Positions 1-30,947 of a stretch of DNA of 30,947 nt are shown here, piece by piece. This DNA comes from a virus. Positions within the stretch are counted from its first letter, which is position 1. Each line of letters begins with the position of its first letter. Position numbers and translations under genes: made by a program. Location of the stretch: IMG/VR virus record IMGVR_UViG_3300046787_000096, positions 1 through 30,947 of that record; one strand, written 5' to 3'. The notes beneath the pieces were generated by a model. The model worked only from the letters and a program-made list of their open reading frames with translations, was not told the DNA's origin and did no database searches.

Positions 1-212
1 GTAGTGGTGAATCGGTTCCTGGAATCAGTTCCATTGCTTCAGCTCCTGGAGTGGCGAGCGAAGTTTGGGTTTAAATTGGTGATCGATATCGATGACTATT
101 GGATCCTATTTGACAAGCACCTAAGCGCTGGAACCTATCGCAAGCTTGGAATTACTAGGATCATCCGTGACTATATCAAACACGCGGACCTGGTGACCAC
201 GACTCACAATCG
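1..212. repeat. Terminal direct repeat, left copy
   Basis: Bases 1-212 match 30736-30947 with a single difference: C at 128 against A at 30863. The repeat lies inside the glycosyltransferase gene and keeps its frame, so the simplest reading is overlap of a circular assembly or of a circularly permuted genome, not a regulatory repeat. The mismatch changes Ala to Asp at residue 96 of the joined protein. Confidence 0.95.
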
Positions 213-7785: not shown

Positions 7786-9656
7786 TGGCAGTAAATGAAA
7801 CGGTAGGTATTAACCTAGTAGCAGACACCAAGAGTCTCAGAGGGCAACTTCGTGAAGCGATTCAAGAATTAGCAAAGCTCCAGAATTCCGCTGGGGCTTC
7901 TGCTAGTGAGATTGCAAACGCTGCCAAAAGAGCGGCCGAACTTAAGGATCGGATTGGTGACGCTAAAGCAACTATCGAAGCTTTTGATCCAGACGCTAAA
8001 TTTAAGGCGTTTGGACAATCGATTCAGGGCGTAGCTGGAGCATTCGCTGCAACTCAGGGAGCTCTGGCTCTAGTGGGTGTAGAATCTGCTGAGGTCGAGA
8101 AGCAACTCTTAAAAGTTCAGGGAGCCCTGGCGTTATCTGAAGGACTTAATACGGTCCTTAGCTCAATCGATGGATTTAAAAACTTAGGGCTAGTGATCAA
8201 GACAAACGTCTTGAGTGCTTTTGCTTCAATGAAAGCGGCCGCGATCTCTGCCTTCACTACAATGCGAGGCGCTTTGATTGCCACTGGGGTGGGAGCTTTT
8301 GCCGTAGCTTTGGGGTTAATCGTTTCTAACTTCGATGCTATCAAGGAGGCAGTACTTAAAGTAGTTCCAGGGCTTGCTAATGTAGGCAAGATTTTCACTA
8401 GCATAGTCGAGAAAGTGACTGACTTTGTAGGCATCACAAACGAAGCAGACAGAGCGCTTGAAAGATTTACAAAGACATCGACTAGAAGAAAGGAAGGACT
8501 TGAGGCAGAGCTTAAAGTTTTGGAGGCTTCTGGAGCTGGAGAGAAGGCGTTATCAGATAAGCGCAAGGAGATTGTAAACACGGACTTAAATGTCTTAAGA
8601 GAAAAACTAAAAACGACTGGTAAGCTATCCGATGACGAAGCGAAGAAATTCCGTGAACTAAAAACTGAATTAGTCGTAATTGATACCAAGTACAATAAGT
8701 CGATCATAGACGCGAACAAGAAGCGCAATGATGAGATAGCCGCGCAAAATAAACAAGCCAAAGACAAGGCAGATGCTGAAGCCAAAAAGGCAAAGGAGGA
8801 AGCTGACAAGAAAGCGGCGGAGGCAGAAAAGGAACTAAAAAAGAATCAGGAAAGAATCGCTTCAGAGGATGAAGCAATCAGAAACAGAAACGCTGATAAA
8901 TTCCTGACTGATCAACAAAAGGAAGAGGAGGCAGTCAATGCCAAATACACTAAGCAATTAGAGGACCGAATTAAGTTTGGCGGTGATGAAGCAGTTATCG
9001 AGGAGGCTAAGAATGAGGAGCTAAGAGCGATCCAGGAGAAATACGATCAGATTGCGCTTGAGCAACTAACTGCGACAACTGAAGAGACGGTTCAGGTTAT
9101 AAAGAAAGGCGAGGAGCTTGAGACTAAAAACCAGAAGGCACAGACTGAAGCTAGAAAGAAACTAGCAGAGGAGGAAGCAAAGGCTAAAATAATGGCTGCT
9201 TCTGCAACTGCTGACACGCTAGCAAATCTATCGAATCTATTAGGACAAGAGACTGCGGCGGGTAAGGCTATGGCCGTAGCTTCAGCGACTATATCAGCTA
9301 TCGTTTCAGCTCAAAAGGCTTATGAGTCTACTATCGGAATTCCTTTCGTAGGTCCAGTGCTAGCTCCGATCAATGCTGGACTAGCTTTAGCTTCTGGATA
9401 CAAATCGATTCAGAACATCTTAGCGGTCCAGGTTCCAGGACAACCTGGAGGAGGTTCCCCAAGTTTACCAAGTGGACCAAGCGCGGGAGCTGGGGCTCCT
9501 ATTGCACCAAGAGCAGCGGAACCAGTTCCGACTTCACTCGATCAGCGATCACTAAACACGATCTCGAATGTAGTGACCAGGGCTTATGTGGTAGAGAGTG
9601 ACATCACTGGATCTCAGCAACGAATCCAGAGAATAGAAAAGGCTTCAAGATTTTAA
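7785..9656 (+). CDS. Tail tape measure protein
   Basis: 623 aa. An Ala/Lys/Glu-rich N-terminal coiled coil (10-65) is followed by a hydrophobic stretch (about 140-187, including GALIATGVGAFAVALGLIV), a long charged coiled coil (about 320-470, many AKKAKEEADKKAAEAEK-like runs), a second hydrophobic zone (about 500-545) and a Gly/Pro-rich tail. This pattern is typical of tape measures, which fix tail length and insert into the host membrane. At about 0.15 nm per residue the tail would be near 90 nm, which is short for a siphophage. It lies after, not before, the tip proteins, which is unusual. Confidence 0.8.
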   Translation: MAVNETVGINLVADTKSLRGQLREAIQELAKLQNSAGASASEIANAAKRAAELKDRIGDAKATIEAFDPDAKFKAFGQSIQGVAGAFAATQGALALVGVESAEVEKQLLKVQGALALSEGLNTVLSSIDGFKNLGLVIKTNVLSAFASMKAAAISAFTTMRGALIATGVGAFAVALGLIVSNFDAIKEAVLKVVPGLANVGKIFTSIVEKVTDFVGITNEADRALERFTKTSTRRKEGLEAELKVLEASGAGEKALSDKRKEIVNTDLNVLREKLKTTGKLSDDEAKKFRELKTELVVIDTKYNKSIIDANKKRNDEIAAQNKQAKDKADAEAKKAKEEADKKAAEAEKELKKNQERIASEDEAIRNRNADKFLTDQQKEEEAVNAKYTKQLEDRIKFGGDEAVIEEAKNEELRAIQEKYDQIALEQLTATTEETVQVIKKGEELETKNQKAQTEARKKLAEEEAKAKIMAASATADTLANLSNLLGQETAAGKAMAVASATISAIVSAQKAYESTIGIPFVGPVLAPINAGLALASGYKSIQNILAVQVPGQPGGGSPSLPSGPSAGAGAPIAPRAAEPVPTSLDQRSLNTISNVVTRAYVVESDITGSQQRIQRIEKASRF

Positions 9657-20914: not shown

Positions 20915-21014
20915 AATTATTTCCTTACCATAAGATCAGGACTTAGTTCATTTTTCGTAGTATAGGTTTAGATGACACTCAGAAAGCCCCAGGATTTTAT
21001 CTTTGGGCTTTTTT
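20915..21014 (+). ncRNA. Candidate 100-nt small RNA
   Basis: A non-coding interval is bracketed by a host-type -7 element (20901-20908) and an intrinsic terminator. It contains a small CTTA-CCA-TAAG hairpin near 20934 and no start codon followed by a plausible gene. This is the layout of a free-standing small RNA, though it could equally be a terminated leader. I recognise no family. Confidence 0.4.
20983..21014 (+). terminator. Rho-independent terminator
   Basis: AAAGCCC (20983-20989) pairs with GGGCTTT (21005-21011), a seven-pair stem with a 15-base loop, running into six T (21009-21014). It separates the late lysis region from the early region. Confidence 0.85.
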
Positions 21015-21134
21015 GTGTTTAATATATTCTACAACATTAAGTATACTTTACATATTAGGTGGATTCTGTTAAATTTATTTTACAAATAATTAAATAAAAA
21101 AGTTGAAAAAGTTTTTTATTTCGGAATATGTTCT
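21015..21134 (+). promoter_or_regulatory. AT-rich regulatory gap with palindrome AAGTATACTT
   Basis: No gene is seen here. The stretch is strongly AT-rich and holds the perfect 10-base palindrome AAGTATACTT (21039-21048), an inverted repeat TTTATTT (21074-21080)/AAATAAA (21092-21098), and poly-A/T runs before the -7 element at 21135. It reads as the operator/UP-element region of an early promoter. Confidence 0.4.
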
Positions 21135-28355: not shown

Positions 28356-28575
28356 TAAAAATCTGCCAGCTAATTATCAGGCTTGCATCGCCTGGATTGA
28401 GTCAGAATTGACACGAGAGACACGATCGATCCAGATGCCTGGTGTTATCATTCACGACTTGAATGGATCGCTTAGAATGAATTTAATGCGTATGTTAAAT
28501 AACCACGGAGCGGAACGAAGAGCTGCGTTCCTGAGGACCAGAAAAATAAAAGACTACCTATCTAAAAACCCATGA
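28345..28575 (+). CDS. Hypothetical early protein (76 aa)
   Basis: NLPANYQACIAWIESELTRE, then a basic region (NHGAERRAAFLRTRKIKDYL). Net positive, helical; a nucleic-acid-associated role is possible but unproven. Codon use and GATC return to the core type here. Confidence 0.55.
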   Translation: MDTNKNLPANYQACIAWIESELTRETRSIQMPGVIIHDLNGSLRMNLMRMLNNHGAERRAAFLRTRKIKDYLSKNP

Positions 28576-28922
28576 AAAAATTAACACAAAAACAAACGAT
28601 CATAATCTACGCGGGACTACTTAACGCGCTGATCGATCACATCGAGGCTGACTTCAGACCTTCTATCTTTAATCGCCAGTCATTGAAGATGAAATCCAAG
28701 AGCACACTGGAGGAGCTTCTCAAGATTGAAGCTGAGATGTACAAAGGGGATCCAAGCGGAGACGTCACGGATCAATACCTGGACGCGGGCCGCTTGATGA
28801 TTGCCTTCTTTAAATTAGGCATCGAAATGGCGGATATGGATCCGATCAGATCAGAAGGTCTTAATACTCAGCTAAATATATTATTTAAAAACTACGGTAT
28901 TGATTTGGATAATCCAATTTAA
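28572..28922 (+). CDS. Hypothetical early protein (116 aa)
   Basis: Helical: KQTIIIYAGLLNALIDHIEA, then a basic patch (FNRQSLKMKSKSTLEELLK) and QYLDAGRLMIAFFKLGIEMA. Overlaps the previous stop by four bases. It is the last gene before the RNA-bearing gap 28923-29139. Unknown function. Confidence 0.55.
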   Translation: MKKLTQKQTIIIYAGLLNALIDHIEADFRPSIFNRQSLKMKSKSTLEELLKIEAEMYKGDPSGDVTDQYLDAGRLMIAFFKLGIEMADMDPIRSEGLNTQLNILFKNYGIDLDNPI

Positions 28923-28940
28923 TTTTATAAACTTTGTATT

Positions 28941-29000
28941 AGTCAGGTGGCGGAAGGGTAAACGCACTTATCTGTAACAGGTTCGAATCCTGTCCTGACT
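28941..29000 (+). tRNA. 60-nt tRNA-like element lacking an anticodon arm
   Basis: Acceptor: AGTCAGG (28941-28947)/CCTGACT (28994-29000), seven perfect pairs. D arm: GCG (28950-28952)/CGC (28963-28965) with loop GAAGGGTAAA. T arm: ACAGG (28977-28981)/CCTGT (28989-28993) with the canonical TTCGAAT loop. ACC follows (29001-29003). Between D and T arms only 11 bases remain (ACTTATCTGTA), too few for an anticodon arm and variable loop. The piece CTTATCTGTAA resembles the 5' half of a tRNA-Tyr(GTA) anticodon arm, so about 13 bases may have been lost. It should still attract RNase P and RNase Z, but cannot decode normally. Confidence 0.65.
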
Positions 29001-29122
29001 ACCTTCCCTTTCAGGGTGACGACCTGATAAATTCTGAGATGTATAAAGTCAATACACCATAGGGCTCAGCGAAAGAAAGTCGGAAACTAAACTTGACAGC
29101 TCGGAAAGACGGGCATCTTTTT
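29001..29122 (+). ncRNA. Structured RNA downstream of the tRNA-like element
   Basis: No gene fits here. Visible pairings: TCAGG (29011-29015)/CCTGA (29023-29027); CTGAG (29034-29038)/CTCAG (29065-29069) enclosing TGTAT (29040-29044)/ATACA (29052-29056); CGAC (29020-29023)/GTCG (29079-29082) as an alternative outer closing stem; and the terminal hairpin 29099-29114. Purine-rich single-stranded joins (CGAAAGAAAGT, CGGAAACTAAAC) link the stems. This many nested helices suggests a folded RNA, possibly released from the tRNA-like 3' end. No Rfam-type family is recognised by eye. Confidence 0.5.
29099..29122 (+). terminator. Putative intrinsic terminator
   Basis: GCTCG (29099-29103)/CGGGC (29110-29114), five pairs with one G-U, loop GAAAGA, then AT-C and five T (29118-29122). 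Moderate strength; it closes the structured RNA 17 bases before the DUF3310 gene. Confidence 0.5.
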
Positions 29123-29139
29123 AACCAAACAATTTAATT

Positions 29140-29391
29140 ATGACACACATTGCAAACATTGAGCACCTGGAGTCTAGCCAGAAGCTACCAAGCATTGACC
29201 TGGTCAATGATCCTCCTCACTACAAAAGCGAAAGAGGGCTCGAATCGATCGATGTGATTGAAGCATTTGACCTAGGGTTTAACCTGGGGAACGCAATCAA
29301 ATACATCCTTAGATGCGACAAGAAAGGCAATAAGATCCAGGACCTTGACAAGGCGATCTGGTATCTTAAGCGCGAAATCGAAAACTCCTAG
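29140..29391 (+). CDS. DUF3310 family protein
   Basis: 83 aa. The DUF3310 signature is present: VNDPPHYKSERGLESIDVIE (about 21-40), FNLGNAIKYILRCDKKG and DLDKAIWYLKREIE. These short helical proteins are widespread in phages and are sometimes annotated as nucleotide kinase-like, but without a P-loop; the function is not known. Leader TTAACCAAACAATTTAATT matches that of the gene at 18845 over twelve bases. Confidence 0.85.
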   Translation: MTHIANIEHLESSQKLPSIDLVNDPPHYKSERGLESIDVIEAFDLGFNLGNAIKYILRCDKKGNKIQDLDKAIWYLKREIENS

Positions 29392-29394
29392 CCA

Positions 29395-29901
29395 GTGCAA
29401 AAGACCAGGAATCAAATTATCGAAGAGCTTTACCTATCCAAGGATATAGCTTCGGCTCTAAGAAAAATGCAACCTGCTAGCCTCCGCGATGATCTAAGGC
29501 AAGAGATGTTCATCTCCTTGTGCAACCTATCAGAAGAAAAGTTCTGGAACCTGCACGAGAATAACGCTCTAAAATTCTACCTGGTCCGCGCGATGCTTAA
29601 CATGATCAGAAGCACTGGGATGAATCAGCCCTTCTTTAAAAACTTTCGTGCGAAGTTTGAGTCAATTGAGGAGATCGACAATATAGCGGACCAGATCGAC
29701 GATCGTAAAGACGAGAAAGAAAAGCTATTCGATCTACTGGACGAGAGGCGAAAAGATCTCTGCTGGTACGAGAACACCTTGCTTGATCAATACGTCGCTT
29801 CAAACTTTAATCAAATGGAGCTACACCGAAAGACTCGGATCCCTTATCCATCCATAGTCAAGACGATTTCGCTAATTAAGAATAAACTCAAGGATGAATA
29901 A
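29395..29901 (+). CDS. Sigma-factor-like transcription regulator
   Basis: 168 aa, probable GTG start. The N-terminal half (LRDDLRQEMFISLCNLSEEK, FYLVRAMLNMIRS, residues 30-72) resembles the region 2 helices of ECF sigma factors, where a DLxQE segment binds core polymerase. An acidic linker (95-115) leads to a region 4-like helix-turn-helix (MELHRKTRIPYPSIVKTISL, 141-160). It would redirect host polymerase to phage late promoters, such as the motif shared by 2997, 10293 and 12577. It overlaps the next gene by eight bases. Confidence 0.65.
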   Translation: MQKTRNQIIEELYLSKDIASALRKMQPASLRDDLRQEMFISLCNLSEEKFWNLHENNALKFYLVRAMLNMIRSTGMNQPFFKNFRAKFESIEEIDNIADQIDDRKDEKEKLFDLLDERRKDLCWYENTLLDQYVASNFNQMELHRKTRIPYPSIVKTISLIKNKLKDE

Positions 29902-30085
29902 GAAGCCCGATGAATTCGCGAAGGATCTGTTTAATAACTGCCTTTACTTTACTGGATCTAAATTGATGGCGCGTGAATGCGCTCTGTTTGTTTGCCAGAA
30001 GTTCCTGGACTATTGCACCAGGATGGACGATAAATGTTATCACCTGGAGGTACAAGAAGCCCTCTATAAAATCGAGATCGTATGA
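29894..30085 (+). CDS. Hypothetical protein (63 aa)
   Basis: Helical, four Cys (residues 17, 29, 34, 41 region) in FNNCLYFTGSKLMARECALF and VCQKFLDYCTRMDDKCYH. The Cys spacing does not match a named zinc finger. Overlaps neighbours on both sides by a few bases. Unknown function. Confidence 0.55.
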   Translation: MNKKPDEFAKDLFNNCLYFTGSKLMARECALFVCQKFLDYCTRMDDKCYHLEVQEALYKIEIV

Positions 30086-30309
30086 TTCAACTCCTTGCAT
30101 CGGTGGCCTTTGTCACTTTCTTCCAGATGAATAACTTGCACCTGGATCTAAAGCTAAACTTTAAGCCATTCAACTGCGCGCCTTGCCTAGGCTTTTGGGT
30201 AGCGCTTGGATTGATGTGGGCTCCAGTGGAGTTTTGTGAGATCATTGCGATCACCTTTGGAGCTGGTGTAAAATGCGCCATAGTTTACAGACTTTTAATG
30301 AAATTATAA
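30082..30309 (+). CDS. Small membrane protein with Cys pair
   Basis: 75 aa with an N-terminal hydrophobic stretch (MIQLLASVAFVTFFQM), then FNCAPCLGFWVALGLMWAPV and a third hydrophobic segment (EIIAITFGAGVKCAIVYRLL). CxxC followed by GFW and a transmembrane helix is a pattern I associate with small phage membrane proteins. It may affect the host envelope or exclude other phages; there is no direct evidence. Confidence 0.6.
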   Translation: MIQLLASVAFVTFFQMNNLHLDLKLNFKPFNCAPCLGFWVALGLMWAPVEFCEIIAITFGAGVKCAIVYRLLMKL

Positions 30310-30623: not shown

Positions 30624-30947
30624 TGGTGTAACTTACCACAGACTGGCGCTTCCTTTGTCAATCATGGAGAAGGAATACTGCCTGATTACAGACACGATCA
30701 CAGAGGACCTATTGAAGGAGAAGAACTTCAACGTCGTAGTGGTGAATCGGTTCCTGGAATCAGTTCCATTGCTTCAGCTCCTGGAGTGGCGAGCGAAGTT
30801 TGGGTTTAAATTGGTGATCGATATCGATGACTATTGGATCCTATTTGACAAGCACCTAAGCGATGGAACCTATCGCAAGCTTGGAATTACTAGGATCATC
30901 CGTGACTATATCAAACACGCGGACCTGGTGACCACGACTCACAATCG
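30577..30947 (+). CDS. Glycosyltransferase, GT4-like (5' part; continues at 1)
   Basis: ATG at 30577 (MTKSKLRILAVGSQNSGVTY) opens the gene that continues in frame at base 1 and ends at 864. The first 20 residues form the first strand and a glycine-bearing loop of a GT-B fold, and HRLALPLSIM the following helix. This copy has Asp at residue 96 where the left copy has Ala. The A/C-rich leader ACCAACCAA replaces a Shine-Dalgarno site. It is truncated only by the window end. Confidence 0.85.
   Translation, partial: MTKSKLRILAVGSQNSGVTYHRLALPLSIMEKEYCLITDTITEDLLKEKNFNVVVVNRFLESVPLLQLLEWRAKFGFKLVIDIDDYWILFDKHLSDGTYRKLGITRIIRDYIKHADLVTTTHN
30736..30947. repeat. Terminal direct repeat, right copy
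   Basis: Matches bases 1-212 except A at 30863 for C at 128. Removing one copy gives a circular unit of 30,735 bp with an intact glycosyltransferase gene. Confidence 0.95.

Follow-up and report, generated by a model that had tools for sequence, protein, structure and literature searches.

The viral genome IMGVR_UViG_3300046787_000096 (IMG/VR), analysed here as one stretch of 30,947 nt (the window), carries a tRNA-like RNA without an anticodon arm. The element very probably belongs to a conserved family of real, non-decoding tRNA-like RNAs. The same armless form, 61–63 nt long and with a conserved linker, was found in 24 other phage contigs, representing 18 distinct sequences. The features of the site are as follows.

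28923–28939, plus strand: promoter-like box TTTTATAAACTTTGTAT, immediately 5′ of the tRNA-like RNA; kept in relatives, there directly before AACCAAAC and the next gene.
28940–29122, plus strand: 183-bp segment present in this phage only, comprising the tRNA-like RNA, a spacer and a terminator-like hairpin; its flanks are contiguous in relatives.
28941–29001, plus strand: armless tRNA-like RNA including discriminator A73; 61 nt, Rfam tRNA 41.5 bits.
28941–28947, plus strand: acceptor 5′ strand AGTCAGG, partner of 28994–29000; two-sided changes at 7/7 pairs among 17 sequences.
28950–28965, plus strand: leucine-type D arm GCG-GAAGGGTAAA-CGC with A14, A15, G18, G19, U20 and A20a.
28966–28976, plus strand: 11 nt replacing the anticodon arm and variable loop, A26 and CTTATCTGTA; family linker CTA-Nx-CAGCA.
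28977–28993, plus strand: T arm ACAGG-TTCGAAT-CCTGT.
28994–29001, plus strand: acceptor 3′ strand CCTGACT and discriminator A73; CCA is not encoded, and CCT comes next.
29002–29092, plus strand: spacer of about 90 nt, with no more structure than shuffled sequences.
29093–29122, plus strand: phage hairpin TTGACAG-CTC-GGAAAGAC-GGG-C followed by ATCTTTTT, terminator-like; conserved, with a covarying stem.
29123–29391, plus strand: downstream leader AACCAAAC... and the next gene from 29140 (PHROG 236-like "nucleotide kinase" family).

The element reads AGTCAGG-TG-GCG-GAAGGGTAAA-CGC-A-CTTATCTGTA-ACAGG-TTCGAAT-CCTGT-CCTGACT-A from 28941 to 29001. All pairs are formed in the acceptor (28941–28947/28994–29000, 7/7), the D stem (28950–28952/28963–28965, 3/3) and the T stem (28977–28981/28989–28993, 5/5), and the T loop is TTCGAAT. 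The initial annotation had described these three fully paired arms and the TTCGAAT loop, with 11 bases standing in for the anticodon arm and variable loop, and the sequence agrees on both points; the 11 bases are A26 and ten further nucleotides. The start given there (28941) also stands, whereas the 60-base extent to 29000 falls one base short, since the discriminator A at 29001 is part of the element. Because CCA is not encoded, CCA addition would be required.

The Infernal search that had been proposed, run with the full Rfam tRNA model, matched the element above the cutoff of 29 bits (E 1e-5) and aligned the anticodon arm as deleted. The R1 model scored it at 79.7 bits, the element itself being a training member of R1. 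ARAGORN, which searches for an anticodon arm, called no tRNA anywhere in the window, at this site or elsewhere. The armless geometry, sought with a generic detector, gave one match in 200 shuffled windows. The 61-mer folded better than its shuffles (z −2.84). RNAfold alone on the window sequence preferred a hairpin of the D arm and linker to the 3-bp D stem. In the alignment, one compensatory change favours the D stem. Recurrence in 24 further phage contigs, together with strong covariation, is decisive evidence against a chance origin.

The first scan of viral contigs, for a D-loop to T-loop spacing too short for an anticodon arm, found 23 contigs with the same armless element. The second scan used the D loop and linker only and was blind to the acceptor and T arm. 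It returned 20 contigs, 19 of them with the complete chassis; the one new contig (L478) showed a further compensated T stem, GCAAG/CTTGC. The D loop (AAGGGTAAA) is invariant in 17 aligned armless sequences, and their linker is CTA-Nx-CAGCA with small variations. Their acceptor stems differ widely (AGTCAGG/CCTGACT, TCTCATG/CATGAGA, ACCAGAG/CTCTGGT, AGCGCAG/CTGCGCT). Two-sided compensatory changes were observed at 11 of the 15 base pairs across these 17 distinct sequences. The proportion of paired cells in the alignment was 98.8%, which none of 500 shuffles matched; slid controls reached 31–43%. RNAalifold, unaided, recovered the same three helices. An anticodon arm is absent from all 18 distinct sequences of the subtype. 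The armless pattern gave no match in an exact-pattern scan of 84,980 bacterial and archaeal genomes, and no full-length close match to the window element was detected in cultured phages. Other very short tRNA-likes (57–66 nt), of sequence unrelated to the armless family, were seen in L122, L142, L154 and L163.

This conservation across phages bears out the idea of a maintained mimic raised in the initial annotation. The deleted tRNA-Tyr offered beside it is not supported: a tRNA-Tyr remnant was rejected on the family linker CTA-N-CAGCA and the leucine-type D arm, and the CTGTAA remnant does not recur in other members. The 24 independent contigs rule out an assembly deletion, and their common armless form rules out a lone pseudogene. 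The proposed comparison with related phages likewise revealed no normal-length tRNA at the site; the relatives are without the element.

The upstream gene (28572–28919) has 38 relatives in IMG/VR. In the relatives with downstream sequence, the box (TATAAACTTTGCAT) runs directly into AACCAAAC and the next gene, with 183 bases fewer. The closest relative (L002, 96% protein identity) has this arrangement too; two distant relatives, with a different leader, depart from it. Since the segment (28940–29122) is absent from the closest relatives, it was probably gained, directly behind the conserved promoter-like box. We read the box as a Bacteroidota-type −7 box and infer that it functions as a promoter. 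The host of the phage is presumably a member of Bacteroidota. The element has the appearance of a small, self-contained RNA unit ("moron") set at a transcription start, with a putative promoter and terminator. The two ends of the window (1–212 and 30736–30947) share 212 nt that differ at one position. The genome, of about 30.7 kb, is therefore probably complete in this record and either circular or terminally redundant.

The initial annotation had also supposed that processing frees a folded RNA behind the tRNA-like RNA. This found little support: the 128 nt downstream folded like shuffled sequence (z 0.10), on which ground a large folded RNA was rejected, and the region holds the spacer and one hairpin with a T-run. 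A scan for terminator-like sites returned 29099–29114 (5-bp hairpin, then ATCTTTTT) as the sole site in the region tested. The part downstream of the tRNA-like RNA matched no Rfam family. Rfam matches up to E 5 were absent for group I/II introns, known ribozymes and riboswitches in the insert and for the HDV family in the window, and the GOLLD and ROOL models had no match in the window. An intergenic hairpin at 20955–21034 of the window gave a mir-315 match below threshold, probably by chance.

This layout bears on one alternative, in which the element would be a transcript-end device only, its tRNA-like 5′ end yielding a processed 5′ end for the downstream mRNA. The tRNA-like RNA does sit between the promoter-like box and the leader of the next gene. 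However, the terminator-like hairpin and T-run intervene before that gene, and elsewhere in phages the element lies after stop codons or within tRNA/ncRNA clusters. We consider this alternative highly improbable.

The hairpin itself (TTGACAG-YYY-GGAAAGAC-RRR-Y; 29093–29114 in the window, 22 nt) was found in at least 119 viral stretches. As an estimate of pattern specificity, one or two chance matches per 100 Gb would be expected on both strands. The UUGACA and the GAAAGA loop were set by the search pattern; the stem covaries (GCTTG/CAAGC, GCCCG/CGGGC, GCCTG/CAGGC, GTTCG/CGAAC and others). Among 123 fully paired hairpin contexts, 36 lay 3–13 nt (mostly 4–5) upstream of a tRNA or tRNA-like, 29 lay before a T-run, and 58 adjoined neither. 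The hairpin had no Rfam match, and its sequence was not found in the open-licence literature. An ssRNA-phage sequence also matched, but its stem is unpaired, and the match was dismissed as fortuitous. The hairpin-bearing stretches (L241–L359) include a 322-kb contig (L243) with four copies at about 8750–9110 on the minus strand; three of these copies fall in consecutive 78-nt repeats. In L236 (MT835475.1, 501–654), the hairpin is followed by a type II hammerhead match near threshold (35.4 bits, cutoff 37). In the Vibrio phages L231, L233 and L240, it lies within long, apparently structured non-coding sequence whose Rfam matches are to tRNA only.

When the same chassis was sought with no length limit, 208 distinct elements were obtained in the contigs examined. 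A crude 5-bp test failed to recognise a canonical anticodon stem in 156 of them. The chassis is near-constant (AGTCAGG-TGGCGnAA(T)TGGTAGACGC ... ACAGG-TTCGAAT-CCTGT-CCTGACT-A), and the anticodon/variable region, here called the cargo, comprises 10–155 nt of highly diverse sequence. The cargos of 146 long-insert members fell into 113 clusters at the 12-mer threshold. A pattern scan for a chassis with 60–90 nt between the arms matched at least 120 viral stretches and, among all prokaryote genomes, three small MAG contigs. The acceptor and T-stem identity of these scan members is partly set by the search pattern and was not counted as evidence. Many long-insert members are housed in tRNA islands, and some are called as odd tRNAs by ARAGORN. 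GOLLD adjoins chassis elements in L454, and Bacteroides phage BS-TP2, which is in culture, carries a long-insert member.

Cargo exchange was followed in sister phages at the locus between the homologues of window genes 29894–30085 and 30082–30309. The locus is empty in the window, L001, L002, L008, L027 and L031, where the junction measures 17 nt. It is occupied by a chassis with one cargo in L014, another in L019 and L028, a third in L023, L025 and L026, and a fourth in L036. In L014, L019, L028 and L036, the stop codon and the start of the chassis share bases (AAATAG|TCAGG). The L036 chassis, which follows the homologue of 29894–30085, has extra D-loop sequence and is flanked by the direct repeat AAAATAGAAATAAAAT, which suggests a recent insertion event. 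In Vibrio phages PS10B.1 and 141E35-1, the hairpin, acceptor and T arm are common to both, and the body between differs. The armless element is the minimal, sequence-conserved subtype of a phage chassis family with an exchangeable anticodon region. This family of tRNA look-alikes, with the decoding arm removed or swapped, is large and apparently undescribed.

The D arm points to leucine. Of nine ordinary phage tRNAs that share this D-arm type, eight are tRNA-Leu. Identity nucleotides were counted in 159 long-insert members at positions not set by the searches. Most keep A14 and A15, and UAGA/UUAGA follows GG in 105. U48 is present in 141 (T makes up 26% of the cargo), and A73, followed by C, is also present in 141. 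A14, A15, G18, G19 and A20a occur in all armless members; A73 occurs in 14 of 16 and G73 in the other 2. Identity of E. coli tRNA-Leu involves A73, A15-U48, G18 G19, A20a and the D/T-loop contacts, and the anticodon is not involved (PMC9976931). Leucylation persists in vitro when the anticodon and variable arms of tRNA-Leu are removed, and the anticodon arm is required for editing (PMC9976931). The window element has A73, A14, A15, G18 G19, A20a and U54 U55 C56 A58, and by this comparison the chassis retains most of the nucleotides known to specify leucine identity. The A15-U48 Levitt pair is missing: nt 48 is A in 16 of 16 armless members, so this pair, important in full tRNA-Leu, is lost.

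These counts also bear on the suggestion that the elements are decaying tRNA pseudogenes spread through recombination in phage tRNA islands. Long-insert members are frequent in such islands, and the odd-tRNA calls would fit decay. Nevertheless, the acceptor and T stems carry compensatory changes and the discriminator is fixed; the D loop is invariant and the linker conserved in independent contigs; the cargo varies freely while the identity positions are preserved; and the window phage carries no tRNA gene besides the element. Such decay is very unlikely.

Building on the structure, the conservation and covariation of the armless form, its phage restriction, its presence or absence at the site, the cargo replacement and the retained leucine positions, all documented by sequence comparison, we propose, as the best explanation, that the element is a phage-encoded tRNA-Leu mimic that does not decode, undergoes maturation and is recognised by leucyl-tRNA synthetase. 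We give this proposal, whose transcription, processing and charging steps are all predicted, an even chance, and any one purpose for the phage less than that. Transcription would start at the promoter-like box (28923–28939) and yield a short unit, with the tRNA-like RNA as its 5′ portion, that would terminate at the hairpin and T-run. The RNA would be matured by the host tRNA pathway, namely RNase P, RNase Z or exonucleases, and the CCA-adding enzyme; cutting by RNase P and RNase Z is plausible. Leucyl-tRNA synthetase may then charge the anticodon-less RNA through its leucine-type elbow and A73. The product would be a stable leucyl-RNA, or an uncharged synthetase ligand. Either could compete for or redirect tRNA-binding factors and would stay out of decoding.

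The chief rival is a processing or stability scaffold, in which RNase P/RNase Z, recruited by the tRNA ends, cut out a stable small RNA. Its active part would be the cargo in long members or the linker in armless members, and the leucine features would be inherited baggage. Those features could indeed be ancestry, not present function. A scaffold is consistent with the constant chassis and hypervariable cargo, with the different cargos of sister phages at one locus, and with the preserved RNase P/Z recognition surface (D/T elbow and acceptor). Against it, the cargo showed no excess of complementarity to its own locus (longest antisense match on average 9.90 against 9.95 in the control, over the loci examined) and was only mildly structured (mean z −0.7). 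A pure scaffold leaves the preservation of U48 and A73 unexplained, and the armless form is nearly without cargo. We regard the scaffold as possible, if unlikely.

A further reading casts the element as a decoy aimed at a tRNA-attacking or tRNA-sensing factor of host defence: the RNA would be uncuttable by anticodon nucleases and would offer a substitute acceptor and elbow. Phage restriction and rapid exchange at a variable locus, as often in counter-defence cargo, are in its favour. However, its target in host defence is not known, and in a scan of the neighbouring genes neither a toxin or ligase nor a repair gene was linked to the element. We rate the decoy as improbable. Returning to the leucyl-tRNA synthetase mimic, a wider generalisation is tentative and, in our view, somewhat short of even: phages of many environments may share a modular class of leucyl-RNAs with a constant tRNA-Leu chassis and exchangeable cargo, often hairpin-adjacent, matured and charged by the host and put to non-decoding use (synthetase capture, counter-defence or cargo delivery). 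Within this class, the armless element would represent the minimal form.

Non-decoding tRNA-like RNAs are already known, such as the tmRNA domain, mascRNA and viral tRNA-like structures. A description of armless or anticodon-less phage tRNAs, or of a chassis-plus-cargo family, was not found in the open-licence literature. If the part recognised by a synthetase is kept without the decoder arm, viruses would use aminoacylation or tRNA maturation for purposes other than translation. Many "tRNA-undetermined" calls in phage genomes could become a testable family. The elements may also provide natural tests of synthetase recognition independent of the anticodon, and a ready-made scaffold for stable RNAs with variable inserts.

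Compared with a decoding tRNA, the 7-bp acceptor, the D and T arms and the elbow nucleotides are present here, whereas the anticodon arm with its anticodon is absent and 11 nt lie between the D and T arms. The mascRNA and MEN-beta tRNA-like RNAs of mammalian lncRNAs are non-decoding, are excised by RNase P/Z and receive CCA; they keep a short anticodon-like arm and are positioned 3′ of the lncRNA. Unlike them, the phage element is armless and has a terminator-like hairpin behind it. The tRNA-like domain of tmRNA consists of an acceptor and T arm with a D loop, lacks an anticodon arm and is charged by a synthetase. It is alanine-type with a G3-U70 acceptor pair, and tmRNA has a long mRNA-like and pseudoknot domain with a tag ORF. 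In contrast, the third acceptor pair is T-A here, not G-U, and no tmRNA was called in the window by ARAGORN or matched by Rfam. Theta ribozymes are HDV-like, with a nested pseudoknot. They lie beside phage tRNAs, mainly in phages of Bacteroidota, and cleave no more than 5 nt from the tRNA 3′ end (PMC10879173). They resemble the companion hairpin as an extra RNA motif adjoining phage tRNA genes, but the hairpin is followed by a T-run or ends, mostly 4–5 nt away, on the 5′ side of a tRNA-like. GOLLD and ROOL are large RNAs encoded by phages close to tRNA islands and still lack an assigned function (PMC12286853); their fold is unrelated to that of the phage tRNA-like RNA. Armless mitochondrial tRNAs, also naturally reduced, lack the D and/or T arms and keep decoding (PMC7609411); the phage element instead lacks the decoding arm. 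The minimalist constructs of tRNA-Leu made by Larkin et al. (2002), described in the review PMC9976931, are likewise without anticodon and variable arms and depend on A73 and the D/T-loop contacts. The phage elements look like their natural counterparts: the constructs are laboratory-made, whereas the elements described here form a natural, conserved phage gene family, with A at nt 48 in its armless members.
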